From Haloterrigena sp. KLK7 (GTDB taxonomy: Archaea; Halobacteriota; Halobacteria; Halobacteriales; Natrialbaceae), in assembly GCF_037914945.1 (NCBI RefSeq), contig NZ_CP149790.1:62001-126000 (forward strand): DNA of 64,000 bases, written 5' to 3'. Under the pieces are notes generated by a model, which did not search any database, was not told the DNA's origin, and worked only from the letters and a program-made list of their open reading frames with translations. A program made the position numbers and the translations under genes. The stretch's first letter is position 1. Every line of letters begins with the position of its first letter. This document shows, piece by piece, positions 5,138-53,254 of the stretch.

Positions 5138-6390
5138 CTGATCCCGACACCGACATCGACAGCGAAAGCGGGTCCGGAACCGACGCCGACGCCGGCCCGG
5201 TGGCGGAGGCCGACGGCGGCGTCGCCGAGGCGGAGAGCGACGCGTCGGCACCGGAGCCGAGCGACGAGGGCGCTGAGACCGGCGACTCCGTCCCGATCGC
5301 GAATCCGACGCTCAGCGCCGACGCCGTCGAACGGGTCGACGAGATCCTCGAGAGCGGCATGCTCGCGGACGGCCCCGAAGTCAGGGACTTCGAGGACGAG
5401 TTCGCCGCCTACTGCGAGACCGACCGGGCCGTCGCGACGTCCAACGGGACGACCGCCCTGCACGCGGCCCTCGAGGCGCTGGATCTCGACGCGGGCGACG
5501 CGGTTCTCACGTCGCCGTTCTCCTTCGTCGCGAGCGCGAACGCGATCAGACTCGCCGGCGCCACGCCCGTCTTCGCCGACATCGATCCGGAGACGTACAC
5601 GCTCGATCCGGACGCCGTCGAACGCGTCCTCGAGGAGCGCGACGACGTCGTCGGCCTGCTGCCGGTCCACCTCTACGGACTGGCGGCCGACATGAATCGG
5701 CTGTGCGAGATCGCCGACGACCACGACCTGTTCGTGCTCGAGGACGCCTGCCAGGCCCACGGCGCGGCGATCGACGGCGACCGCGTCGGGTCGTTCGGCG
5801 ACGCCGCCTGCTTCTCGTTCTATCCGACGAAGAACATGACGACCGGCGAGGGCGGGATGATCACGACCGATCGCGACGACCTCGCCGACCGGGCCGCGAG
5901 CTTCGTCAATCACGGCCGAGACGTCGGCGAGGGCGGCAGCTACGAGCACGTCGACCTCGGCCACAACTACCGCATGACGAGCCTCGCCGCCGCCATCGGC
6001 CGCGAGCAACTCGAGCGGCTGCCCGAATTCAACCGGGCACGCCGAGAAAACGCCGCCTACTACGACGAACAATTGGCCGACCTACCGGTCGAGACGCCGA
6101 CGGAACCGGACGGCTACCGACACGTCTACCACCAGTACACGATCCGGACCGACGAGCGCGACGAACTGGCGGCGACGCTCGACGAGCGTGGCGTCGACAC
6201 CGGCGTTTACTACGGAACGCCGATCCATCGACAGCCGGCCTACGAGACGGTGAGTACGGCCGCAGCGACGCTCCCCGAGGCCGAGCGGGCGGCCGAAACC
6301 GTGCTCTCGCTGCCGGTGCATCCGACCCTCTCGGAGCGCGACCGCCGAACCGTCGTCGAAGCAGTGACCGACCACTTCCACCCCCAATGA
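5134..6390 (+). CDS. DegT/DnrJ/EryC1/StrS sugar aminotransferase (WbpE-like)
   Basis: A PLP-dependent aminotransferase of 418 residues. The catalytic core begins near residue 55 (IANPTLSADAVERVDEIL). It shows the family marks SNGTTALHAALEAL, DIDPETYTLD, LPVHLYGL and EDACQAHGA, and the PLP lysine lies in FYPTKNMTTGEGG (Lys about 233). The acidic N-terminal 50 residues are an extra low-complexity extension. The family transaminates UDP-3-keto-sugars, usually with glutamate as donor. It overlaps both neighbours by ATGA junctions, so it sits in a translationally coupled operon. Confidence 0.95.
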   Translation: MTDPDTDIDSESGSGTDADAGPVAEADGGVAEAESDASAPEPSDEGAETGDSVPIANPTLSADAVERVDEILESGMLADGPEVRDFEDEFAAYCETDRAVATSNGTTALHAALEALDLDAGDAVLTSPFSFVASANAIRLAGATPVFADIDPETYTLDPDAVERVLEERDDVVGLLPVHLYGLAADMNRLCEIADDHDLFVLEDACQAHGAAIDGDRVGSFGDAACFSFYPTKNMTTGEGGMITTDRDDLADRAASFVNHGRDVGEGGSYEHVDLGHNYRMTSLAAAIGREQLERLPEFNRARRENAAYYDEQLADLPVETPTEPDGYRHVYHQYTIRTDERDELAATLDERGVDTGVYYGTPIHRQPAYETVSTAAATLPEAERAAETVLSLPVHPTLSERDRRTVVEAVTDHFHPQ

Positions 6391-7370
6391 ACGAAACACC
6401 TTCACGACCGATTCGGGCCGGCGTCATCGGCGTCGGCTCCATGGGCGAGAACCATGCGCGCGTGTACAGTCAACTACAAGATGTCGAACTCGCCTGCGTT
6501 ACCGACCACGACGAGGAGATCGCGCAGCGAGTCGCCGACGCGTACGCCACCGACGCCGTCCCGTTCGAGACCGCCCTCGAGCGCTGTGACGTCGTCACGG
6601 TCGCCGTCCCGACGCGGGCACACTACGACGTCGTCTCGGCCTGTCTGGACGCCGGCGTCCACGTCCTGGTCGAGAAGCCGATCGCCGAGACGACCGAACA
6701 GGGCCGCGATCTGGCCGAGCAGGCCGACGAACGGGGTCTCGTCCTCCAGGTCGGTCACATCGAGCGCTTCAACCCGGCCGTTCAGACGGTGACCGACCTG
6801 ATCGACGATCTCGACGTCATCAGCGTCGAGGCCGAGCGGCTCGGCCCGCCGCTCGATCGCACCGCGCTGGGCAACGTCGTCTTCGATCTGATGGTCCACG
6901 ATATCGACGTCGTCGGGGCCCTGCTCGACGATCAGCCGGACTCGGTGACCGCGACGGGAACCGAAGGCGGTCAGTACGCGACGGCGACGATGGAGTTCGA
7001 CGACGTCGTCGCTTCGCTGACGGCCAGTCGCGTCACGCAGAAGAAAGTCCGGACGCTGACCGTCACCGCCCGCGAGTGTCTCGTCGAGGTCGACTACTTA
7101 GAGCAGTCGGTGCTGATCCACCGCGACTCCTATCCGGAGTACCTCACCGACGACGGGAAGCGCCGGTACCGCCACGAGAGCGTCGTCGAACGGCCGCGCG
7201 TCGACAACGGCGAGCCGCTGCGCCACGAGCTCGAGGCGTTCGTCGAGGCCGTCCGGACCGGTTCCGAGCCGGTCGTCACCGCGGAAGACGGGATCGAGGC
7301 CCTCGAGACCGTCCAGACGATCGATTCGATGGTCACCGAGGAGAGCGAGAAACGGGAGGTGGAGGCCTGA
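6387..7370 (+). CDS. Gfo/Idh/MocA oxidoreductase (WbpB-like)
   Basis: A 327-residue NAD(P)-dependent sugar oxidoreductase. Its N-terminal Rossmann fold has GVIGVGSMGENHARVY, followed by the EKPIAETTEQG segment with the conserved Lys-Pro. The LMVHDIDVV motif carries the family's C-terminal-domain His. WbpB/WlbA members oxidise carbon 3 of UDP-N-acetyl-glucuronate, making the ketone that the aminotransferase next door would use. The ATG overlaps the previous stop, although the frame remains open far upstream in shadow sequence. Confidence 0.93.
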   Translation: MNETPSRPIRAGVIGVGSMGENHARVYSQLQDVELACVTDHDEEIAQRVADAYATDAVPFETALERCDVVTVAVPTRAHYDVVSACLDAGVHVLVEKPIAETTEQGRDLAEQADERGLVLQVGHIERFNPAVQTVTDLIDDLDVISVEAERLGPPLDRTALGNVVFDLMVHDIDVVGALLDDQPDSVTATGTEGGQYATATMEFDDVVASLTASRVTQKKVRTLTVTARECLVEVDYLEQSVLIHRDSYPEYLTDDGKRRYRHESVVERPRVDNGEPLRHELEAFVEAVRTGSEPVVTAEDGIEALETVQTIDSMVTEESEKREVEA

Positions 7371-26229: not shown

Positions 26230-27441
26230 TTACGAATCCAACGTCGACCGTACCGCCTGATGGACGCCCACCGATTCGATCGTCTCATCCAACGCATCGA
26301 GTACTGCGGTCAAATCCTGAACTAACTCGATCGTCTTGTATTGGCCCCCAGTACTCCCCTCGTTTCGTTTTTCGACGGCAATCAATCCGAGCATCTCGAG
26401 TTCATCGAGATGATCGTGCATCCATCGACTCGTCAACGAATCGTGACCAGCTTCTGTGCAAAACCGTTCGTACCGTCGGTACAAATCACGAGAGCGAACG
26501 GGCGAGTCATCTGAGGAAACGTAGGACGCTAATGCATACAGTAGGATTTTCTCGTGCATGTTGAGTCCCAAAATGCCACTCGTGATCTCCTCTTGTTGGA
26601 GCAGACTACGACCGCGACGAACGTGTTCCTCGCGAACCATCTCAGCGTTTTCTTCATTCGCAATGTCTCCCGCTTTCAGAAGCAGATCAAGAGCTTTCCT
26701 CGCATCACCGGACTCCTGAGCACCGAACGCAGCACACAGAGGGATAACGCCGTCTGCGAGAATATCCTCTTGAAACGCGATCGATTGGCGTTGGCGCAAC
26801 ACTTCCTCCAACTCGTCGGCAGTATACGCGGGGAAATTAATACTCCGTTCACAGAGACTCGATCGGACCTTCGGTGAGAGCGTGTCCCGATAGGTGAGAT
26901 CGTTACTGATACCGACGACGCTAACTCGCGCATCACTGATATTGTCGTTTTCTCGCGCTCGAGAGAGTTGATAGAGCAAAGAATCGTCCTGCAGATGGTC
27001 GATTTCGTCGAGTACGATGATGAACAGTCCGCCGTGATCGTCGAACGAGTCCCACATGAGATCGTAGACTTTGGAGCGGGGATGACCAGTCTCGCTAATT
27101 TTATCGTCACGGAAGGAATTCACGAGTTCGACGGCAACCCGATAACTGGTATCGACACCGTCACAGTTGACGACGTGAGTACTGATCGAGACATCGTGTT
27201 GTTCGCTGGCCGACTCAAGACGATCAAGCAAAAACTTGGTAGCGGCAGTCTTTCCCACCCCGGTTTTGCCATATAAAAAGACGTTATCAGGTTGGCTTTC
27301 GTTGATCGCCGGTTGGAGTGCAGTGTGATATGCCTCCAGTTCGTCGTCTCGTCCGACCATCTCGTCGGGAGTATAATCGTCCAAGAGAGCATTTCGATTC
27401 TGGAACGGAAAGTCGTCAGGTGTGAAAGCGAATTGGCTCAT
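26230..27441 (-). CDS. Orc1/Cdc6 replication initiator (copy 2)
   Basis: A 403-residue AAA+ initiator. It has Walker A GKTGVGKT near residues 58-65, Walker B IVLDEIDH, sensor 1 VGISND and the ERSINFPAYTADELEEVLRQ region. The C-terminal winged helix contains DSLTSRWMHDHLDELEMLGLI. It belongs to a different subfamily from copies 1 and 3 (FTPDDFPFQNRNALLDDYTP at the N-terminus). ATG at 27441 is taken rather than GTG five codons earlier. The gene is less GC-rich than its neighbours. Its origin is probably the gap upstream. Confidence 0.96.
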   Translation of the reverse strand: MSQFAFTPDDFPFQNRNALLDDYTPDEMVGRDDELEAYHTALQPAINESQPDNVFLYGKTGVGKTAATKFLLDRLESASEQHDVSISTHVVNCDGVDTSYRVAVELVNSFRDDKISETGHPRSKVYDLMWDSFDDHGGLFIIVLDEIDHLQDDSLLYQLSRARENDNISDARVSVVGISNDLTYRDTLSPKVRSSLCERSINFPAYTADELEEVLRQRQSIAFQEDILADGVIPLCAAFGAQESGDARKALDLLLKAGDIANEENAEMVREEHVRRGRSLLQQEEITSGILGLNMHEKILLYALASYVSSDDSPVRSRDLYRRYERFCTEAGHDSLTSRWMHDHLDELEMLGLIAVEKRNEGSTGGQYKTIELVQDLTAVLDALDETIESVGVHQAVRSTLDS

Positions 27442-27487
27442 TACGATAGCAATCACACAGAGGGGATTTAGAATTTTCTACCTCCCG

Positions 27488-27561
27488 TTCAAGTGATTCA
27501 AGTGAGTGGCTTATTTATATATTGTTTACCGACTCAGAGACCCCGTCGTTCAAGTGAATTT
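27488..27561. repeat. opposed CAAGTGA boxes, origin 2 family
   Basis: GTTCAAGTGA occurs at 27488 and 27547, and a further TTCAAGTGAGTGG at 27497. They are close to the inverse of the CACTCGAAC boxes at the other end of the gap. Confidence 0.6.
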
Positions 27562-34063: not shown

Positions 34064-34248
34064 AGACTGCGACCACATTAGAAGCGGAGCCTAAAGACAC
34101 GTTTGGTCCCGAAAGCGCCGGACGTGTCGGCCACGGAGGGAGATCGCGATGACACACCACCGGTTCAATCGTTCCGCAAATGCGTGGCAGGGGAGACCGG
34201 CCGGGCCACGTGGCCAACTACATGTGGGGTCGGCCCGACGACTCGCGT

Positions 34249-34938
34249 ATGAGCGACGAGCGAACGCCCGATTCGACGGTCGAGAACACGCCGGGGCAGG
34301 GACGGACGCCCGAACCCGAACGGATCGAACCGGCAGCGCCCGAGGAGTTCGGGCTCGTACAGGTCTGGTGGGGCGACGGCAAGGGGAAGACGACGGCCAC
34401 GCTCGGGATGGGGATGCGCGCCGCGGGCCACGGCTACCGCGTGCATATGCTCCAGTTCATGAAGGGCGGCGCCTCGAGCGTCGACGCCGTCCGCGGCGAG
34501 TACAACGCCATCGCGGCGCTCCCGGGACTCAGCTACGAGAACCTCGGCCACTACGGCTGGCACGGGATGGCCGACGGCAGCGACGAGGAAGACCACGAGG
34601 CGCAGGCCCGAGCCGGTCTCGAGCGCGCCCGCGAGCTACTCGAGGCGGCTGGGGAGGCCGACCTCGAGGCCCCGATCGATCTCGACGCGCCGCCGGAGGC
34701 GGGGATGCACATGCTGCTCCTCGACGAGATTCTCTACGCCGCGGATCGCGACCTGATCGGCGAAGACGACGTCCGCGAACTGATCGACGCGAAACCCGAC
34801 GACCTCGAACTGGTACTGTCGGGGAGCCACACGGAGCCGACGTACCTCGAGGACCGGGCCGATCTCGTTACGAATGTTCGCAAAGAGAAACATCCGATCG
34901 ACGACGGGCAGCGGGCCCGGCGCGGAACCGAATTCTGA
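34249..34938 (+). CDS. cobA: cob(I)yrinic acid a,c-diamide adenosyltransferase
   Basis: A 229-residue CobA/CobO/BtuR-type enzyme that adds the adenosyl group of ATP to the corrin cobalt. It has the P-loop WWGDGKGKTTATLGMGMRAA near residues 36-55, HMLQFMKGG and the second site MLLLDEILYAADRDLI. The C-terminal part has SGSHTEPTYLEDRADLVTNV. The N-terminal 30 residues are an acidic extension. The cobyric acid synthase gene lies 3.9 kb downstream, with an ABC exporter and an origin-like region between them. Confidence 0.95.
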   Translation: MSDERTPDSTVENTPGQGRTPEPERIEPAAPEEFGLVQVWWGDGKGKTTATLGMGMRAAGHGYRVHMLQFMKGGASSVDAVRGEYNAIAALPGLSYENLGHYGWHGMADGSDEEDHEAQARAGLERARELLEAAGEADLEAPIDLDAPPEAGMHMLLLDEILYAADRDLIGEDDVRELIDAKPDDLELVLSGSHTEPTYLEDRADLVTNVRKEKHPIDDGQRARRGTEF

Positions 34939-35041
34939 GCGGAAGCGGCGGCCGCTCGAGCGAACGTTCGCCCCGTCGATCCTGTTACTATTCACCTACC
35001 AACACAATTATTATCAATTCCTGTGAATGGATCGACGTTCA

Positions 35042-35821
35042 ATGGGTGCAATTCGGGTAGACGGACTGCGCAAGTCCTACGGAGCCGTCGAGGCGGTGGC
35101 CGACATGAGCTTCACCGTCGAGCGCGGGGAGTTGTACGGGTTTCTCGGGCCGAACGGCGCCGGGAAGACGACCACCATCCGGACGCTGACGGGGCAGATC
35201 CGACCGGACGCGGGGACCGTTCGGGTCCTCGAGACCGATCCGGCGGCCGAGCCGATCGAGACGCGACGCCGGGTCGGTATTCTGCCGGAGCAACAGTCGC
35301 CGCCGAGCTTCCTCACGCCGCGCGAGTACCTCGAGTTCGTCGGGGACGTTCGCGGTCTCGATCCCGACCGGGTCGCCGAGCGGACGGCCGACTGGGCCCA
35401 GCGACTCGGCTTCGAGAACAAACTCGACACGCTGCACACGGACCTCTCGCGGGGCCAACAGCAGAAGGTGATGATCACGCAGGCGTTCATCCACGAGCCC
35501 GACGTGGTCTTCATCGACGAGCCGCTGGCGAACCTCGATCCGCTGGTCCAGGAACAGGTCAAGCGATTCCTCGTCTCCTACGCCGCCGGCGACAACGCCG
35601 TCTTCGTCTCGACGCACAACATCGACGTCGCCGAAGAGATCTGTACCCGGGTCGGCATCGTCGCCGACGGCCGGATCGTCACCGAGCGCTCGCTCACCGG
35701 CGACGGGAGCGGTGCGGACGTCGAGAGCGAACGCGACGAATCGCTCCTGGAGGTGTTCCTCGAGCGCGTCGAACGCGAGGACGCTCGAGACCTGCCCTCG
35801 CTCGAACGGATCGACGCATGA
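35042..35821 (+). CDS. ABC transporter ATP-binding protein
   Basis: A 259-residue ABC ATPase. It has Walker A LGPNGAGKTTTIRTL near residues 34-48, a Q-loop in ILPEQQSPP, the signature DLSRGQQQKVM (LSRGQ rather than LSGGQ), Walker B PDVVFIDEPLANLD and the His switch VSTHNID. The subfamily is ABC-2 type exporters such as CcmA/NatA. Its stop overlaps the permease start, so the two make one transporter. An ATG five codons earlier (35027) is an alternative. Substrate unknown. Confidence 0.95.
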   Translation: MGAIRVDGLRKSYGAVEAVADMSFTVERGELYGFLGPNGAGKTTTIRTLTGQIRPDAGTVRVLETDPAAEPIETRRRVGILPEQQSPPSFLTPREYLEFVGDVRGLDPDRVAERTADWAQRLGFENKLDTLHTDLSRGQQQKVMITQAFIHEPDVVFIDEPLANLDPLVQEQVKRFLVSYAAGDNAVFVSTHNIDVAEEICTRVGIVADGRIVTERSLTGDGSGADVESERDESLLEVFLERVEREDARDLPSLERIDA

Positions 35822-37287
35822 GCGGGGCAGCGACGACCGACCGATCGGGGCCCTCGACGCGGCGACTGCTCGGCGTGCTCTTCCGCGAGGAGTGGCGGCT
35901 CCACACCCAGCTGTTCGGCGGCTGGCGGTTCGCGCTCTTCCCGGGCGTCATCGCCGTGCTGGCGGTGGGCGCGACGGTCGCCCTGCGGGAGACGGGGACC
36001 GCGGACGGAACGATCCTGACGGGCCTGCACGTCCTCGCGCTCGGCTTCGGTCTCTACAGCGGGACCGCCGGATTCGCGGGCTCGGACATGCTCGAGAACG
36101 TGTTCGGCGAGCTCTCGCTCGTCCTCTCGTCGTCGACGACGCTTCCGCTGTCTCGGCGGCGGCTGCTGGGCGTCTTCCTGCTGAAGGACGCGCTGTTCTA
36201 CGCGGTCGCGTTCGTTCTGCCGATGGCGCTCTCGAACGCGGTGCTGGTCGACCGCCCCGCGTCCGCGCCGCTGGCTGTCGGAGCACTGTGGCTCTCGCTG
36301 TCGCTGACGTTCGCCGCCGGGATGGCCCTGACCGTCGCGCTGATCGCGGTCCGGACCCGCGGCGTGCCGACGTGGGCGATCGCCGGAACCATCGTCGTCG
36401 TCGCCAGTGGGGCGTGGCTGACGGGAACCGGCGGAGCCGTCTGGAGCGCGTTCGTTCCGATCGACGGCGGCCCGATGAGTGCGATCGGACTGGCGGTCGG
36501 AACCGGACTCGTCGGCACGGCGTCGCTCGCCCTGTACGATCCGACCTACGGGCGGCCGTCGCGAACCGCCAGCGATCGGTTCGCCCGCCTCAGCGACGCG
36601 CTCCCCGTGGAGGCGGTCGGCGCCGACAGCGCGCTCGTCTCGAAGACGCTGCTCGATCTGGCCCGTTCCTCGGGCGGCGTCGCGAAGCCGTTCGTCTCCG
36701 CGGCCATCCTGCTGGCGCTGGTGGCCGCACTCGTCGATATCGTCGACTCGATCACTGGGATCGCGCCGGCACCGGGGGTCTTCTTCGGCGGCGTGCTGGG
36801 GCTGACCGCGTTCACGACGTACAACTGGCTGACCCAGTTCGACTCGCTCGAGGCCTACCTCGCCTACCCCGTCTCGATCGACGACGTGTTCCGAGCGAAA
36901 CGGATGGCGTTCGTCCTCGTCGGCGCGCCGACCGTGGCGGTGCCGTACCTCGCGGCCGTGGTCTGGTTCGAAGCGACGCTCGTCGACGCGGTCGTCGGCG
37001 CCGTCCTGCTCGCGGGCTACGCGCTGTACTACTACGGGCTGACCGTCTACATCGCCGGCTTCGATCCCAACGAGTTCCTCTTCGACGCCGTGCGGTTCTC
37101 GCTGTTCACGCTCGGCGTGGGGGTCGCGCTCGTGCCGACGCTCGTCGCTGGGTTCGTCGTGGTGCCGCCTACTGGGACCGTCGCGGTGGCGCTGGGAGTT
37201 GGTGGGATCGGGTTCGGTATCGTTGGATTAGTTCTCTCGAGTCGGGCCGGACCGCGATGGGAGAAACGGGCTCGAGATGGCGAGTGA
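35818..37287 (+). CDS. ABC-2 type transporter permease
   Basis: A 489-residue membrane protein with about twelve hydrophobic segments, starting near residue 40 (FALFPGVIAVLAVGATVAL). Helix pairs run throughout and end with GTVAVALGVGGIGFGIVGLV. The start ATG is inside the last codons of the ATPase gene, which is strong evidence for a two-gene exporter. Sequence alone does not show the substrate; haloarchaeal versions are poorly studied. Confidence 0.88.
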   Translation: MSGAATTDRSGPSTRRLLGVLFREEWRLHTQLFGGWRFALFPGVIAVLAVGATVALRETGTADGTILTGLHVLALGFGLYSGTAGFAGSDMLENVFGELSLVLSSSTTLPLSRRRLLGVFLLKDALFYAVAFVLPMALSNAVLVDRPASAPLAVGALWLSLSLTFAAGMALTVALIAVRTRGVPTWAIAGTIVVVASGAWLTGTGGAVWSAFVPIDGGPMSAIGLAVGTGLVGTASLALYDPTYGRPSRTASDRFARLSDALPVEAVGADSALVSKTLLDLARSSGGVAKPFVSAAILLALVAALVDIVDSITGIAPAPGVFFGGVLGLTAFTTYNWLTQFDSLEAYLAYPVSIDDVFRAKRMAFVLVGAPTVAVPYLAAVVWFEATLVDAVVGAVLLAGYALYYYGLTVYIAGFDPNEFLFDAVRFSLFTLGVGVALVPTLVAGFVVVPPTGTVAVALGVGGIGFGIVGLVLSSRAGPRWEKRARDGE

Positions 37288-37353
37288 GAGCGAGGTAGCT
37301 GACAAGAGCGGCGATCGGGCACCCATCTTTGTACGTGAACAGCCGAGACTCGA

Positions 37354-37377
37354 GACACCCCACCGTTGCACGTGAAG
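37354..37377 (-). repeat. ORB-like box, origin 3 family A
   Basis: Contains CACCCCACCGTTGCACGTGA. A weaker relative, cacccatctttgtacgtgaa, lies at 37320-37339. Confidence 0.7.
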
Positions 37378-37443
37378 CCGCCGGGTTCAGGCCGCAGCTA
37401 TCTGAAAAACGGTAGTCGCAGTACGTCCCGATAGCGCCTCCGA

Positions 37444-37467
37444 GACACCCCACAGCTTCATGTGAAG
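37444..37467 (-). repeat. ORB-like box, origin 3 family A
   Basis: Contains CACCCCACAGCTTCATGTGA. Confidence 0.7.
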
Positions 37468-37640
37468 AACGTAATTTGAGTCGGTACTGTGGACGATTTC
37501 TACAACGTTGCTTCGTGAGAGACTGCGAGCAGAAAACAGCTGTGGGAGCGATTCGGATAGCGGAACCGTCCCTCTGGATACTACTACTACTTCGTGAGAG
37601 GACTCTCCTGACGGAACTGCAACGCAGATATCCCTCCCCT

Positions 37641-37840
37641 CCCTCCACCGTTTCCGGAGCTTTCGGTTCTCGAGGGGTACGAAAAGCCACCACTCACACA
37701 CCACTGTTTCCGGAGCTTTTGACCCTCCAGAACGGCGCGGAAAGATACCACCCACACACCACTATTTCCGAAGCTTTTGTCCTCAGACGGATACGGAAAG
37801 ACGCCAATCCACACACCACTGTTTCCGGAGCTTTCGATTC
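37641..37840. repeat. 57-bp iteron-like tandem array
   Basis: Four copies of a box with core CCACACACCACTGTTTCCGG. The TTTCCG element occurs at 37651, 37707, 37765 and 37822, so the period is 56, 58 and 57 bases. The DNA between boxes is also imperfectly repeated (each spacer has a GGnnnnGnAAAG-type segment), so these are tandem repeats rather than boxes with unique spacers. A 57-base period is about 5.4 helical turns. Confidence 0.85.
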
Positions 37841-37918
37841 GCGAAGACAGTTTGCCAGTGTAGAGTGGACAGACACGACATCGGTTTCCTCTCCTCGAGT
37901 CTGAAATCCTTTGGGAAC

Positions 37919-37943
37919 AGACACCCCACTGATTCAAGTGAAG
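37919..37943 (-). repeat. ORB-like box, origin 3 family A
   Basis: Contains CACCCCACTGATTCAAGTGA; its TTCAAGTGA half matches the CAAGTGA boxes of origin 2. Confidence 0.7.
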
Positions 37944-38117
37944 ATCTGCAGTTGAGAGGCTACATACCCACTACACGCAATATTAGAAAAGATGTAAAGC
38001 GTTTGGATGGGTGGTGTCTCTCTCATCAGTGAGCAATTAGAGGGGAACCGTAGTGTTGCCAAGCGAGATCGTTAGGAGAGACTCTCGCTAGACAGTGGTT
38101 GGTCCGTGCTTCGTAAG

Positions 38118-38344
38118 AGGACAAAAATCGATAGGGGGAAGTCTCACAGCGAACAGTACGAGAGAAACTCAACGATCTCGCCCATCAGAATATCCTGTCG
38201 CAGTCTCGTCGCGGTCGTGGACAGGGCCGCGGGATGTCGAACTTCTATTCGATTTCGATCGATCCCGAACTCGCGATCGAAGCGCTTGCAGAAGACCCAC
38301 ATCTCGAGAGCGTCGCGGAAATTCTCCGCGAGATGAGCAGATAA
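38118..38344 (+). pseudogene. frameshifted C-terminal fragment of an Orc1/Cdc6 gene
   Basis: The conceptual peptide RTKIDRG (frame of 38118) continues, after a one-base frame change at a five-G run (38134-38138), as EVSQRTVREKLNDLAHQNIL in the frame of 38138. It then runs through RRGRGQGRGMSNFYSISIDP and ELAIEALAEDPHLESVAEIL to a TAA. This is the winged-helix tail of a cdc6-type initiator (compare LSERRVRDLLEEAEFLEII in copy 1). No AAA+ domain is found upstream, where ORB-like boxes begin. It is too diverged from the three intact copies to be a recent duplicate of them. Confidence 0.72.
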
Positions 38345-38348
38345 CGTC

Positions 38349-38385
38349 TACACTGGAATACCCCCCGTACACTGGAACTGGGGGT
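38349..38385 (+). repeat. pair of TACACTGGAA boxes, origin 3 family B
   Basis: Two direct copies 19 bases apart. The first is followed by six C, the second by a run ending in five G. They begin five bases after the stop of the cdc6 fragment. Confidence 0.7.
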
Positions 38386-38561
38386 CTCGTGCTTCATAAT
38401 CTCTCAGGGTGCAGTGACAAGAACTGTAGAAGCCGTCCGCTCGAGTCGACTACCGATTCGATATGCGAGTAGAACTGCTCAACCGCTCGAGGAAGCGAAC
38501 TCAGACACTGAAGATGAATTCTGCAGTTTGAGCGGTATCTACCGGTCGAATGTATCGGGCT

Positions 38562-38598
38562 TACACTGGAATCCCCCCCTCCCCCACCCCTACCCCGG
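38562..38598 (+). repeat. TACACTGGAA box plus C-rich tract
   Basis: TACACTGGAATCCCCCC is followed by further C runs (ctcccccacccctacccc). On the opposite strand the tract has four G runs and could form a G-quadruplex. Confidence 0.65.
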
Positions 38599-38638
38599 AT
38601 CCATCGGAATAGCGAACGTCGGTGAACACTCGGAAACG

Positions 38639-38665
38639 GTTTCACTTGCAGCGGTGGTGTGTGTC
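38639..38665 (+). repeat. ORB-like box, right edge of origin 3
   Basis: TTTCACTTGCAGCGGTGGTG followed by tgtgtc, close in form to the TTTCACCGGAAACGTGGTGT boxes of origin 4. Confidence 0.6.
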
Positions 38666-38843
38666 TGTGTTCGGTTCCACTGCTCCGTGGTTGGTGATCC
38701 CTCCCTACTACACAGAGGGGCATCGAACTCCACCGTAACGAGAAAGTCGACCTCGAGAGGGGCTCGCCGCTGGAATCGGACGACGAGTAGCGAACCGAAC
38801 CGATAGGACGATACCGAACGCCGCGCGAATGAGACCCACGCGA

Positions 38844-40472
38844 ATGACCAGAACGCTGCTCGTCGCCGGAACCGCGAGCCACGTCGGCAAGTCGACGGTC
38901 GCCGCCGGCCTCTGTCGGTTGCTCGCCGACCGCGGGGTCGACGTCGCCCCGTTCAAGGGACAGAACATGAGCAACAACGCTCGAGTGGTCGTCCGGCCCG
39001 AGGGCGTGGAGCCGGGAGAACTCGAGACCGAAAACGAGGACGGAACCGAAGCGGACGCCGACCGCTGGGGCGAGATCGGCGTCTCGCAGTTCGTCCAGGC
39101 TCGAGCGGCCCGCATAACGCCGACGACGGACTGCAACCCGGTCCTGCTCAAACCCCGCGGCGACGGGGAGAGCCAGCTGGTCCTGCAGGGACGGGCCCAC
39201 GAACACGTCCCGGCCAGCCGGTACTACGAGGAGTTCTGGGACGAGGCCCGCGAGGCCGCCGAGGAGTCCTACCGGCGACTCGCGGCCGACCACGACGTGA
39301 TCGTGGCGGAGGGCGCCGGCAGCATCGGCGAGATCAACCTCCACGATCGGGACCTCGCGAACGTCGAGACCGCGGCGTTCGCCGACGCCGACATCCTCCT
39401 GCTGGTCGACATCGAACGCGGCGGGGCCTTCGCCAGCCTCTACGGCACCATCGAACTCCTCCCGGACTCGCTGCGCGAGCGGGTCGTCGGCGCGGTCATC
39501 ACCAAGTTCCGCGGCGACCGGTCGCTGCTCGAGCCCGGTATCGAGGAGATCGAGTCGAAGACCGGCGTCCCGATTCTGGGCGTGTTGCCCTACGACGATC
39601 CCGGGCTCCCCGAGGAGGACAGCGTCGGCCTGCCATCGCGGAGCGAACGCGGCGTGCTGGGCGACGACGACGGCGTCCCCGCCGATCGGCGGATCACCGT
39701 CGCCGTGCCGCGCCTGCCCAGGATTTCGAACGCGACGGACCTCGAGGCGCTGGCCGCGGAGCCGGGCGTCTCGGTCGCGTTCGTGCCGGTCGAAGCGGAG
39801 CCGACGGACGAGGAAACGGAGCAAGACGAGGGCTCCCGGGAGGATCCGCTCGCCGACGTCGACGCCGACGCGGTCGTCCTGCCGGGAACGAAGAACACGG
39901 TCGACGACCTGCTGGCGCTCCGCGAGGCCGGCTTCGCCGACGCGCTCGCGGCGTTCGACGGGCCGATCGTCGGCGTCTGCGGCGGCTACCAGCTGCTCGG
40001 GGAGCGAATCACGAACGCAGATCTCGAGGGGACCGGCGACGACGCCGTCGTCGAGGGACTCGGACTGTTGCCGGTCGAGACGCGGTTCGAGGGGACCAAG
40101 CGCGTCGCGCAGACGACGGTCCCCGTCGACGGCGAGGCGTCGCCGCTGCTTTCCGGCGCCGACGGCACCGCGTCGGGCTACGAGATCCACGCCGGTCGAA
40201 CGCGAGTGCTCGAGGACGGGACCGAGGCGATAACCCGGCCGCTCGGGGACTCGAGCGCGGCCCGCGGCCGGGTGCTCGGCACGTACCTCCACGGCCTGTT
40301 CGACAACGAGTCGGTCCGGACGGCGTTTCTCGACGCCGTGGCGTCCGAGGCGGGGGTCGACCGGCCGCGCCGCAATGACGGGACGGCCGGACCGACGCCG
40401 TACGACCGCGCCGCGGCGCTGGTCGGCGAGCACGTCGATCTCGAGGCGCTCGGACCACCGTTCGACTCGTGA
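38844..40472 (+). CDS. cbiP: cobyric acid synthase
   Basis: A 542-residue amidotransferase that amidates carboxyl groups of adenosyl-cobyrinate a,c-diamide in cobalamin synthesis. The N-terminal ATPase part has [20 protein letters not shown] and [37 protein letters not shown] and [20 protein letters not shown] follow. The C-terminal glutaminase part has the nucleophile Cys in [14 protein letters not shown] and His in [11 protein letters not shown]. An acidic insert lies near residues 320-335. The ATG at 38844 places the P-loop at the normal distance; 38829 is an alternative. Confidence 0.96.
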
Positions 40473-40561
40473 GCCGAGGGTCACGGACGAGACAGCGCGT
40501 CGCTAACGGTTCCGAGACGGACCGAACAGCGAAGCCGCGAGAACGAGCGACTCGAGTCGGT

Positions 40562-40951
40562 CTACGTGGGGTCGGAACGGTAGGTCCCGAGCAGTTCCTC
40601 GAGGATGATACACTCCTGGTCGGTCGACTCGTAATGGGTGTCGATGAACCGCTCGGCGGCCTCGTAATCGCCTCGAAGCCCGTGTTTGCGAACGGTGATT
40701 ACGGCATCGAGGAAGAAGGTTCCACCGTCGGCACCCAGCGCCTTCGCGTGATCCTCCTCGGAGATGTCGAGTTCGGCCTTGATCTCGTCGAAGTTGAACG
40801 TCTTCACCTCGTGATCGTTGTTGAGTAGGGTGAGCACGTACTCCGCGGAGAAGCGATAGAACTCGGACTTGCTCTCGAACATACCGTCGTCGACCAGTTC
40901 GTCGATCGCCTCGACGACCTCGTCGGGGTACCTGACGGTATCTTTGGCCAT
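40562..40951 (-). CDS. ribbon-helix-helix regulator (CdrS/CdrL-like)
   Basis: A 129-residue protein with an N-terminal RHH domain: TVRYPDEVVEAIDELVDDGM, then FESKSEFYRFSAEYVLTLL. A helical C-terminal domain has GTFFLDAVITVRKHGLRGDY and ERFIDTHYESTDQECIILEE. The RHH part resembles the haloarchaeal cell-division regulators CdrS and CdrL that control ftsZ2, but the C-terminal half differs and no ftsZ is nearby. A dimeric DNA-binding role is likely; the target is unknown. Confidence 0.82.
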   Translation of the reverse strand: MAKDTVRYPDEVVEAIDELVDDGMFESKSEFYRFSAEYVLTLLNNDHEVKTFNFDEIKAELDISEEDHAKALGADGGTFFLDAVITVRKHGLRGDYEAAERFIDTHYESTDQECIILEELLGTYRSDPT

Positions 40952-41101
40952 ACGGATACGATGCTCGCTGCGGACTAATTATTGTTTCGAAGAGTTGTCC
41001 AGTCCATTACAGGTAGTGGCGACGGACTCGCGGTTCGTATCGAGTCTCGAAACGGAGCGAACGTTAAAGGAAGCGGGACGGGTTCGGCTACACGAACAGC
41101 T

Positions 41102-41917
41102 GTGATCGACGTCTCCCTCGGGTTCCTCCTCAGTTCCCTCCCCTGGTGGGTAGCGGCGCCGGTGATCCAGCTCGCGGTGCTCGTCGTCGGGATGGCCTTA
41201 GACGAGACGTACGTCAATCGGACGACGATCCTGACGGGCGCACTCGCCACGCACATTCACATCTTCGTCGCCGGCGAGGCCGGCCTGCTGGTCTCCCTCT
41301 ACGCCGACGCGGGGTTGGCCGTCGGTGCCTACGGGCTGTACGCCTACGTCGTCGACGGCTACGTGGGTACCTGGTTTCGGCTCCTCGCCTACTACGTGTA
41401 CTCGCCGCTATCGGTCTTTCTCGTCGTCCTGACCGCCGGCCCCACCGTGATCGGCGTCGAACCGCTGGTCGTCCTCGCGCTGGCTGCAGCGGGATACGCC
41501 AACGTCCAGTTCCGCGAGTACCTCCGACCCGAACAGCCGTTCTACTTCGGTCCCCGGACGCAGGAGGAGTTCGAGGCCGTCCTCGAGACCGAAGTCACTG
41601 CGGGATCGCCGGCTGACGCCGGAGCCGCCACCGGTGGAGCCGCCGACGCCGCAGCCACCGGGCCAACGGGCGCCGGGACGGCCTCGAGTACGCCCGGTAC
41701 CGAGCCCGCTGGACCGAACACCGCTGCGCAGTCAGCGGCCGGATCGAACACCGACGGACAGGCGACGGCCGGGCGGGACGGAGCGAGCGCCGGCTCGGTC
41801 GACGAGTCCGCGTCCACCGAAGACGGAGCGGAGTTCGACCACCCGGGAACCGAACCGGCCGCCGCGGCCGACTCGAGCGAACGAGGGATCCTGCCGAAGT
41901 TCATGCGCCGACTCTGA
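41102..41917 (+). CDS. multi-helix membrane protein with disordered acidic tail
   Basis: A 271-residue protein with about five membrane helices in the first 145 residues (VSLGFLLSSLPWWVAAPVIQ, GLLVSLYADAGLAVGAYGLY, YYVYSPLSVFLVVLTAGPTV among them). A cytosolic segment with EYLRPEQPFYFGPRTQEEFE follows, then 100 residues of low-complexity Ala/Gly/Thr/Ser, ending in GILPKFMRRL. The GTG start is chosen because upstream codons look like leader DNA with a TTAAAG element. No family is recognised. Confidence 0.72.
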   Translation: MIDVSLGFLLSSLPWWVAAPVIQLAVLVVGMALDETYVNRTTILTGALATHIHIFVAGEAGLLVSLYADAGLAVGAYGLYAYVVDGYVGTWFRLLAYYVYSPLSVFLVVLTAGPTVIGVEPLVVLALAAAGYANVQFREYLRPEQPFYFGPRTQEEFEAVLETEVTAGSPADAGAATGGAADAAATGPTGAGTASSTPGTEPAGPNTAAQSAAGSNTDGQATAGRDGASAGSVDESASTEDGAEFDHPGTEPAAAADSSERGILPKFMRRL

Positions 41918-51088: not shown

Positions 51089-52294
51089 CTACGCGTCGTC
51101 GGTTTCGACGAGCACCTTCCGAACGACGTCCGGATCCTCGAGCAGCTGGTGTTCGGTGTAGCTCCCCTCGGCGCTGCCGCCGCTCTGGCGGGACTGCTCG
51201 ATGATGTCGAGGAAGGCGTGTTCCTTCAGGAGGTCGCGGACGCGGCGCAAGGAGAGCGTGTCCGACCCCTCCTGCCGACAGATCTCCTCGTAGACGTCGA
51301 AGATCCGGGTCGTCCGAAAGCCGTCCTCGTCGGGAGTGTTGAGCGAGAGGACCGCGAGCGCTTGGAGAACGTACCGTGAATGCGGGGTCGAGCCCCGGAT
51401 GAGTTCCCGGAACCGGTCGGTCTCGGCTCGTTCCCGCGCCTGCACGACGAACTCCTCGCGGACCGTCTCGCTGCCGTTCGACTGGGCGATCTCGCCCGCG
51501 TAGCGGAGGATGTCGATCGCCTTCCGCGCGTCCCCGTGTTCCCGGGCCGCCAGCGCTGCCGCCCGGGGGATAACGGAGGGCTCGAGGACGCCGTCCTTGA
51601 ACGCGTCGCTGCGGGCCTGCATGATGTCCCGGAGCTGGTTCGCGTCGTACGGCGGGAAGACGAACTCCCGCTCGCAGAGGCTGGACTTGACCCGCTCGTC
51701 CATCCGATCCTTGTACTTGATCTTGTTACTGATCCCGATGACGCCGATCTTGCACGACTCGAGTTTGCCGGCCTCGCCCGCGCGCGAGAGTTGCATGAGG
51801 ATGTCGTCGTCGTCGAGTTTGTCGACCTCGTCCAAGATGATGAGGACGACCTCGTACTGGGAGTCGAGGACGGTCCAGAGGCGCTTGTAGTACGTCGACG
51901 TGCTGAGCCCCTTATCGGGGATCTTGATCTGCGTCCGGTCGGGATCGTTCAGCGAGTGGGCGATCGTCTGAACCGCCTGCGTCTCCGTGCTGTCCTGGGC
52001 GCAGTCGACGTAGGCGAACTCCGCGGTGACCCCCTCCTCCGTCGAGACGCGGACCAGCCGTTCGGAGATGTGCTTCGCACAGAGGGACTTTCCAGTGCCC
52101 GTCTTCCCGTAGATGAGCAGATTGCTCGGGCTCTGCCCGAAGATCGCCGGATTGACGGCGTTGGCGAGGTCGGCGATCTCGTCGTCCCGGCCGACGATCC
52201 GCCCCTCCTCCGGGAGGTGGTTGATCTCGAGCAGCTCCTTGTTCTCGAAGATAGGGTCGTCACGGGTAAACAGGTCGTCGCCGGAACTCGACAT
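51089..52294 (-). CDS. Orc1/Cdc6 replication initiator (copy 3)
   Basis: A 401-residue AAA+ initiator. It has Walker A GKTGTGKS near residues 63-70, Walker B LIILDEVDKLDDDD and sensor 1 GISNKIKYKD. CEREFVFPPYDANQLRDIMQ follows, and the winged helix has SDTLSLRRVRDLLKEHAFLD. It resembles copy 1 more than copy 2. GC content is close to that of its neighbours, unlike copies 1 and 2, which suggests it is the oldest resident. ATG at 52294 is taken; an ORB lies 9 bases upstream of it, so the protein may repress its own gene. Confidence 0.97.
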   Translation of the reverse strand: MSSSGDDLFTRDDPIFENKELLEINHLPEEGRIVGRDDEIADLANAVNPAIFGQSPSNLLIYGKTGTGKSLCAKHISERLVRVSTEEGVTAEFAYVDCAQDSTETQAVQTIAHSLNDPDRTQIKIPDKGLSTSTYYKRLWTVLDSQYEVVLIILDEVDKLDDDDILMQLSRAGEAGKLESCKIGVIGISNKIKYKDRMDERVKSSLCEREFVFPPYDANQLRDIMQARSDAFKDGVLEPSVIPRAAALAAREHGDARKAIDILRYAGEIAQSNGSETVREEFVVQARERAETDRFRELIRGSTPHSRYVLQALAVLSLNTPDEDGFRTTRIFDVYEEICRQEGSDTLSLRRVRDLLKEHAFLDIIEQSRQSGGSAEGSYTEHQLLEDPDVVRKVLVETDDA

Positions 52295-52302
52295 AATCGT
52301 AG

Positions 52303-52323
52303 ACACCACGTTTCCGGTGAAAC
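52303..52323 (-). repeat. ORB, origin 4 family, in the cdc6 gene 3 promoter
   Basis: ACACCACGTTTCCGGTGAAA, the exact inverse of the forward consensus, lying between promoter and start codon. Confidence 0.8.
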
Positions 52324-52444
52324 GTCTTTATTGTTTGGACTCGGCGACGGTTCGTCGGTCACAGCGTCGAATTACGGGACGAAGAGACGGTCTCGAGCGA
52401 TTATATAATATTAGTGGTAGCGGAAACAGCGGTGGAAGACACAC

Positions 52445-52465
52445 ACACCACGTTTCCGGTGAAAC
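52445..52465 (-). repeat. ORB, origin 4 family
   Basis: ACACCACGTTTCCGGTGAAA preceded by acac. A diverged relative, gggttccagttgaaacgg, follows at 52483. Confidence 0.8.
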
Positions 52466-53116
52466 GGGGAAAACGGGGGGACGGGTTCCAGTTGAAACGG
52501 GGGTTAGGATTCATCGGAAACCCGGTGTGGTGTCGAACCGACGGAGAGGACGAAGACAGCCACTATCGGAATATCGCCCCCATCACGGCTGCTAACCGGG
52601 AACGACAGCGGTTCCTGATTAGAAGGGACTCGAGTTCACCCCGTTCCGATGCTGTGAGCACTCCGTTCTGACGCTGTGAGCTCTCCTCGAGCCCGGTCGT
52701 TGGATCTCGATCACGACTCGCTTGAGGTCTCCAGAGGTCAAAACCGAGCATACAGCGTTCGTCATCCTCAGAGGGGAGTTTCTCGAGGCTGAGGAGTCGT
52801 TCTCTGAGTTGGAAACGAGCCCACATAAAAGAATTTCCGGTGAAAGAGCCGGTGTCGACTCACGTCGACTATTCTCTTCCTGTTTTCTACTCAATGGACT
52901 TTTTAGGCCGGAGTGTATTATATTTAGTGCAAGCAGTGAGATAGTCTAGAGGAAGGACGATAGTCAGATGCAGCAATAAAGAAGTAAAGAAGGAGGGAGA
53001 AAGACGCTCTTTCAGCAGCGAACGTAGAAAGGGGACTTCGAGATATGGTTTCTTTGGAGCCTTCTACGATTATTCCTGGAGAATCCTCATCCGGCTGGAG
53101 GCATCTCACTGAGGCC

Positions 53117-53149: not shown

Positions 53150-53160
53150 TTCGCACCCGC

Positions 53161-53254
53161 TTTCACCGGAAACGTGGTGTGTGTGTCTTCGCTCTCGCCC
53201 TCGTTCCCACAGCCCCCTCCCCCTCTCATCCCGTTTCACCGGAAACGTGGTGTG
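53161..53254 (+). repeat. two ORBs, origin 4 family
   Basis: Perfect copies of TTTCACCGGAAACGTGGTGT at 53161 and 53234, 73 bases apart. Confidence 0.85.

Follow-up and report, generated by a model that had tools for sequence, protein, structure and literature searches.

A probable scar of a repeatedly occupied replication origin site between a permease gene and cbiP in Haloterrigena sp. KLK7

Replicon C4 of Haloterrigena sp. KLK7 has 211,846 bases in a genome of 4.64 Mb, and the 64-kb window analysed here (the whole stretch of DNA, to which all positions refer unless a C4 position is given) corresponds to its positions 62001-126000. Within a cobalamin-related gene cluster, a gap at 37288-38840 separates an ABC-type permease gene (35821-37287, + strand), which borders the gap on the left in every Haloterrigena genome and in several Natronorubrum and Natrinema genomes, from the cobyric acid synthase gene cbiP (38841-40472, + strand), which forms the right border of the origin site. 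Five intact cdc6 genes are present on C4, none of them in the gap. The neighbouring cdc6 (51089-52309, - strand), about 14 kb from the gap, is 95-99% identical in 11 of 11 genomes tested; its inverted ORB pair (52435-52469 and 53156-53190) is intact. Because of this conservation and the long inverted pair, it probably marks the stable origin of the replicon. The cumulative GC skew of C4 is weak, with a minimum at ~3.4 kb beside the cdc6 at C4:4212, a maximum at ~168 kb and no turning point at the gap; it is too weak to place active origins or to speak against activity at the gap. The cdc6 at C4:4212, which adjoins this minimum (C4 ~3.4-4.2 kb), is flanked by two box types, GAACACATGAARCNGTGGTGTGTC downstream and CCCCACTNTTTCCAGTAAAG upstream. 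Beside cbiP, a 69-aa ORF of unknown function is intact in H. alkaliphila (L033:8377-8586) and is represented here by a degenerate stretch (38721-38793) with 68% DNA identity to the corresponding Natronorubrum region.

The gap contains three repeat families in both orientations, as a sequence-only reading of this DNA had stated, and pattern and PWM scans bear this out. The D2 family (ACACMCCACNNNTTCAAGTGAAG-type) has four boxes, three on the + strand (37355-37377, 37445-37467 and 37921-37943) and a sole inverted one on the - strand (38640-38662, TTTCACTTGCAGCGGTGGTGTGT on the + strand). Copy 1, an outlying box, scores 36 bits against a chance maximum of 8, and the same box is found beside family-B cdc6 genes in 7 other genera. 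On the complement of copy 2, CACATGAAGCNGTGGKGTGTC is also similar to the boxes that belong to the resident Cdc6 at C4:4212, and copy 3 is the only exact match to the D2 pattern in the genome. The D1 family (CCACTGTTTCCGGAGCTTT-type) has four boxes on the + strand with a period of 56-58 bp (37640-37664, 37696-37721, 37754-37779 and 37811-37836); the first has the CCCTCCACCGTTTCCGGAGCTTT form that occurs at distant family-C origins, and D1 boxes lie beside family-C genes elsewhere. The third family, ORBc (TACACTGGAATNCCCCCC), has two boxes on the + strand, at 38349-38366 and 38562-38579. Copy 1 is abutted by an inverted partner, GTACACTGGAACTGGGGG (38367-38385, - strand), which was read directly, aligns in G009 and G102 and is unchanged relative to H. 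turkmenica.

When the whole 212-kb replicon was scanned by PWM and compared with five simulated replicons, the D1 and D2 boxes scored 22-48 bits and the best chance score was 8. Elsewhere on the replicon there are only look-alikes of at most 20 bits, found next to other cdc6 genes and chiefly near the one at C4:4 kb, and the strict D2 and ORBc patterns match this genome at the gap only. The boxes have the G-rich end of ORBs and are cognate to Cdc6 families, which for D2 and D1 were found in other genera. Two further likenesses had been proposed. The box TTCAAGTGA was thought to be shared with another cdc6 locus, and it is shared with the cdc6 at 26.2-27.5 kb (4 hits, 0.11 expected), but the copies there are without the G-rich half. 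The likeness of another box to a further locus is limited to the framework that haloarchaeal ORBs have in common. Three copies of TTCAAGTGA, two of them in tandem, are found at 27488-27557, just upstream of the cdc6 at 26230-27456; as the usual G-rich ORB half is absent, they are possibly an autoregulatory site instead of an ORB.

The only initiator coding sequence in the gap is, as had been noticed, a frameshifted winged-helix fragment. This cdc6A remnant (38125-38344, + strand) comprises the last ~73 codons (68-73 residues), changes frame at a run of five Gs (38134-38138) and ends with a TAA at 38342-38344, so that no intact orc1/cdc6 adjoins the ORBs. In a profile search, 38138-38341 matched the Cdc6 winged helix (Pfam Cdc6_C, PF09079) with 23.1 bits and an E-value of 7e-5, just under the curated cut-off of 25.1 bits, and a whole-genome scan for the same profile gave 21.7 bits; the match covers only the C-terminal half of the profile (positions 50-95 of 96). 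A structure search found no solved-structure match. The fragment can be assigned to a subfamily, here called family A, by its 82-83% identity to the C-terminal ~66 residues of two Cdc6 proteins, both intact and 419 aa long, that are encoded at the same locus in Natronorubrum. DNA homology begins at 38125, the tail has the same position relative to cbiP as intact cdc6A, and the TACACTGGAA..CCCCCC boxes that come after it also flank the intact gene.

This tail and its frame change recur in H. turkmenica, while G002 and N. halalkaliphilum have shorter pieces. As tail and frame change are common to both, the decay of cdc6A predates the split of this species from H. turkmenica. Changes at codon positions 1, 2 and 3 number 2, 4 and 7 between the tail here and that of H. 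turkmenica, compared with 1, 0 and 14 between intact copies (Fisher p=0.03), and by this measure the tail appears to be no longer under codon-position constraint. Two other views of the tail were rejected: it is not a remnant of a - strand cdc6, being on the wrong strand and of a different family, and it is not an expressed mini-Cdc6, given the absence of codon-position constraint and the frame change common to both species.

Comparison with close relatives was among the checks proposed for an orphan origin. Each of the five other Haloterrigena genomes searched (G001-G005) carries an intact full-length - strand cdc6 in the gap, named plasmid examples being H. turkmenica pHTUR04, H. alkaliphila and H. 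salifodinae, and two Natronorubrum genomes also have an intact cdc6 there. An intact homologous origin with its initiator thus occupies the same place in relatives, as is expected for a disrupted origin. Four Cdc6 families have occupied the gap, A on the + strand and B, C and D on the - strand, the latter three being well separated according to tree and identities. Boxes are found in the relatives as well. Family A is present on the + strand in the two Natronorubrum genomes, where the TACACTGGAATNCCCCCC boxes flank the intact gene. Family B occurs in H. turkmenica and G002 with ACACMCCACNNNTTCAAGTGAAG boxes, family C in H. alkaliphila with ..CCACYGTTTCCGGAGCT boxes, and family D in G003, G004, H. 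salifodinae and Natronorubrum halalkaliphilum with the box ACGTTTGAATGGGTGGTGTGTG.

The pairing of boxes and initiators extends beyond these genera. Family-B Cdc6 proteins (72-83% identical) are encoded on plasmids of Haloplanus, Natrinema, Halorientalis, Halalkalicoccus, Haloarcula (pNG500), Halocatena and Haladaptatus, and their genes are flanked by D2 boxes; in most of these 7 genera an inverted D2 pair lies ~90-290 bp upstream of the gene, with more boxes past the stop. Family-C genes (proteins 83-86% identical) in 7 other genera are flanked by D1 boxes, with one weak D2 match only. The pairing of each family with its own box type agrees with the published link between Orc/Cdc6 family and ORB sequence (PMC3528665). 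The tail therefore does not represent the initiator that most boxes have lost. It is of family A, whereas most of the other boxes belong to B and C, the genes of which lie on the opposite strand in relatives and are entirely gone here. No cdc6 gene of family A, B or C is present in the assembly, where the best paralogues reach 51% identity to B (whole genome), 46% to C and 34% to A (seven closest paralogues compared). The view of the site as a dead or orphan origin with a decayed cdc6 tail was mostly right. Neither of the two results named beforehand as refuting it was obtained: the tail matches the Cdc6 winged helix in the profile search, and the boxes are conserved in relatives.

Further traces of turnover were seen at this site in other genomes. 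G003, G004 and H. salifodinae, which have a family-D cdc6 at the site, each carry one D2 box by the permease gene (L066:5894 and L067:6234, in cbiP orientation, and L207:3599), and this lone family-B box is a fossil that was left after replacement of the initiator. In N. halalkaliphilum (G067 C15, L069:4138-5155), the winged helix of the family-D cdc6 that occupies the permease-cbiP site is split by a frameshifted transposase-like gene, IS630-type as judged by eye from the sequence. This insertion is a second, independent initiator loss at the same site by another route. On the Halocatena salina plasmid NZ_CP096021.1 (12484-17307, L214), a family-B cdc6 is divergent from the gene for an AAA ATPase with 50% identity to Cdc6A, and such an A/B pair may be a divergent arrangement that recurs on haloarchaeal plasmids.

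The closest counterpart of the KLK7 site is the pHTUR04 origin at HTUR_RS24575 (NC_013747.1) in H. turkmenica. It is an orthologous site with the same outlying boxes and the same cdc6A tail, but between two arrays it has an intact cdc6B, an inverted core ORB pair and an AT-rich segment. The left arm (34212-37777) and the right arm (37442-41629) of the KLK7 site align at 89-90% to the two sides of a ~3-kb H. turkmenica segment that includes cdc6B and has a copy of the array on either side. In a three-way alignment, variants of the left copy extend to ~37520 and those of the right copy start at ~37815, with a mosaic between, so that the putative deletion junction falls at 37520-37815. Such a left/right hybrid single array is the product expected of homologous recombination between ORB arrays. 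Assembly collapse of two arrays was rejected, since the unique cdc6B would survive elsewhere, yet nothing above 51% was found in the 99.4%-complete genome.

The segment that is absent here holds both the inverted D2 pair located upstream of cdc6B and the stretch with the lowest G+C; the G+C minimum is 38% upstream of cdc6B in H. turkmenica vs 46% at the KLK7 site. Accordingly, there is no inverted ORB pair around an AT-rich segment upstream of a cdc6: the close pair is gone, and the remaining inverted D2 pair is 719 bp apart and surrounds the cdc6A tail. The survival of many boxes had been taken to suggest use of the site. Box positions are conserved at 94.8% relative to H. turkmenica and the rest of the gap at 93.4% (p=0.62, a weak test with little power), and the core pair and the AT-rich segment are missing, which does not favour that idea. 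The surviving boxes do appear intact enough for use, which counts against the explanation that we prefer.

We consider it probable that the gap is the scar of a multi-occupancy origin site whose - strand module was deleted via its ORB arrays, leaving a remnant that most likely does not fire. The permease-cbiP gap would repeatedly have hosted Orc1/Cdc6-origin modules, an older one of family A on the + strand and, on the - strand, B, C or D. In KLK7, cdc6A would have decayed to its tail, and the - strand module would have been lost next, most likely in one ~3-kb deletion by homologous recombination between the arrays flanking cdc6B. This deletion would have removed the AT-rich segment and the inverted core ORB pair together with cdc6B from a parent layout that persists on pHTUR04, and left behind outlying ORBs of three specificities (four of B, four of C and two or three of A). 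Replication of the replicon would start at other origins, notably at the conserved origin ~14 kb from the gap. With the cognate initiator absent from the genome and the core origin gone, the site most likely does not fire.

The direction of the event is part of this inference, because a single crossover yields the same left/right pattern: this species and H. turkmenica may descend from an ancestor that had the array but no cdc6, and the latter may have gained its segment, after the two split, from a circular element with the same array, which in principle would look like a deletion here. This reading is possible but unlikely. It gains from duplicated pieces in the H. turkmenica segment, where 6526-6841 is similar to the sequence on the 3' side of the A tail in G002, and from the high synonymous divergence of cdc6B, since the H. 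turkmenica and G002 genes are 46% identical at 4-fold sites, compared with 78-83% for flanking genes, so that the two copies may be separate acquisitions. It costs an earlier initiator loss plus a gain, however, where one deletion suffices, and H. turkmenica retains C-core sequence (6307-6453, 89%) by its left array. In the flanking-gene tree, this species and H. turkmenica group together (support 93/95) with H. alkaliphila outside, and this outgroup has the same left array directly beside its - strand cdc6C, which indicates that the state of an array without initiator is derived. Even if H. turkmenica gained its segment later, it follows from the D1 and D2 boxes here that an initiator had been lost from the site before. 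Replicon fusion, which had been proposed as a source of a dead origin, would fit the presence of several cdc6 genes on one replicon (five intact on C4), but we regard it as highly improbable: the permease-gap-cbiP order is unbroken in congeners, and the three box families share one site at which relatives have the matching genes, so that the site looks like a hot spot of in-place origin-module turnover.

The remaining readings give the surviving boxes a function. A resident Cdc6, most plausibly that of C4:4212-5369, could have captured the origin and fire it in trans through the D2 boxes. This protein is 47-48% identical to B, its downstream boxes have ~20 of 24 positions in common with D2 copy 2, and a Cdc6 is able to act in trans in Haloarcula hispanica (PMC3936714). 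Yet the CATG form is limited to one D2 box of four, the adjoining trinucleotide differs (CTT vs GAA), this Cdc6 is flanked on either side by its own boxes, the site has lost the core inverted pair and the AT-rich segment, and in the H. hispanica tests each origin was used by its own Cdc6 only (PMC3936714). Capture in trans, which the sequence-only reading had offered, is thus improbable, although the boxes of one resident Cdc6 have much in common with D2. We find it similarly doubtful that the leftover arrays act as an initiator sink, an incompatibility or dosage element and not an origin, that titrates B and C initiators of incoming plasmids or a resident Cdc6. The outlying, downstream type of the surviving boxes and the spread of families B and C on plasmids of many genera would suit this, while the low-powered conservation test (see above) shows no additional constraint on the boxes. 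That the orphan array has been kept as a multi-specificity sink, whose ORBs for three foreign Cdc6 families would bind initiators of incoming plasmids as a resident incompatibility or exclusion element once its own initiators had been lost, seems quite improbable to us.

Comparison with better-known origins is consistent with a non-firing scar. In H. hispanica, origins with a broken initiator are non-functional (PMC4441112), and each origin relies on the Cdc6 next to it, which can be supplied in trans, while one origin-initiator pair suffices per replicon (PMC3936714). By this precedent, the KLK7 site most likely does not fire. The H. hispanica sites oriC4-cdc6G and oriC5-cdc6H (PMC4441112) are likewise ORB-bearing origins without the intact initiator that relatives retain, and they lie in variable regions. 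They differ in having one initiator truncated per site (at promoter and start or in the winged helix), whereas in KLK7 the - strand initiator and core were wholly excised, apparently via ORB arrays, and boxes of three specificities remain. Another parallel is the ORB-rich, titrating region oriC2D of H. hispanica, downstream of oriC2-cdc6E (PMC3936714), since the KLK7 boxes also form an ORB cluster outside the core and D2 and ORBc have comparable positions in relatives. However, oriC2D acts beside an intact origin and initiator, neither of which is left in KLK7, so that the likeness is one of box content and position. By this analogy the surviving boxes are most likely outlying, titration-type ORBs, and residual binding of some Cdc6 would be plausible. 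The dormant oriC4-cdc6H of Haloferax mediterranei (PMC4595724) resembles the KLK7 site as a secondary origin of recently acquired type that is not needed by the replicon, but it keeps an adjacent cdc6 and depends on it, whereas the KLK7 site has none.

The KLK7 site is apparently a variant on disrupted origins, as judged from the sequence: a remnant at a site of serial turnover that has boxes of three specificities and suffered its loss through its own ORB arrays. For annotation, it is a warning that an ORB cluster beside a Cdc6-like sequence is not necessarily an active origin. As pairs of box and initiator have been assigned to families across genera, the question of trans firing or titration is testable with defined proteins and a 1.5-kb fragment. 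The site would provide a base-level example of how an archaeal origin may lose its initiator and keep the binding sites, by recombination between the ORB arrays flanking the gene. One intergenic site appears to have served at least four Cdc6-origin specificities in turn, and the leftover boxes would be fossils of its past occupants.
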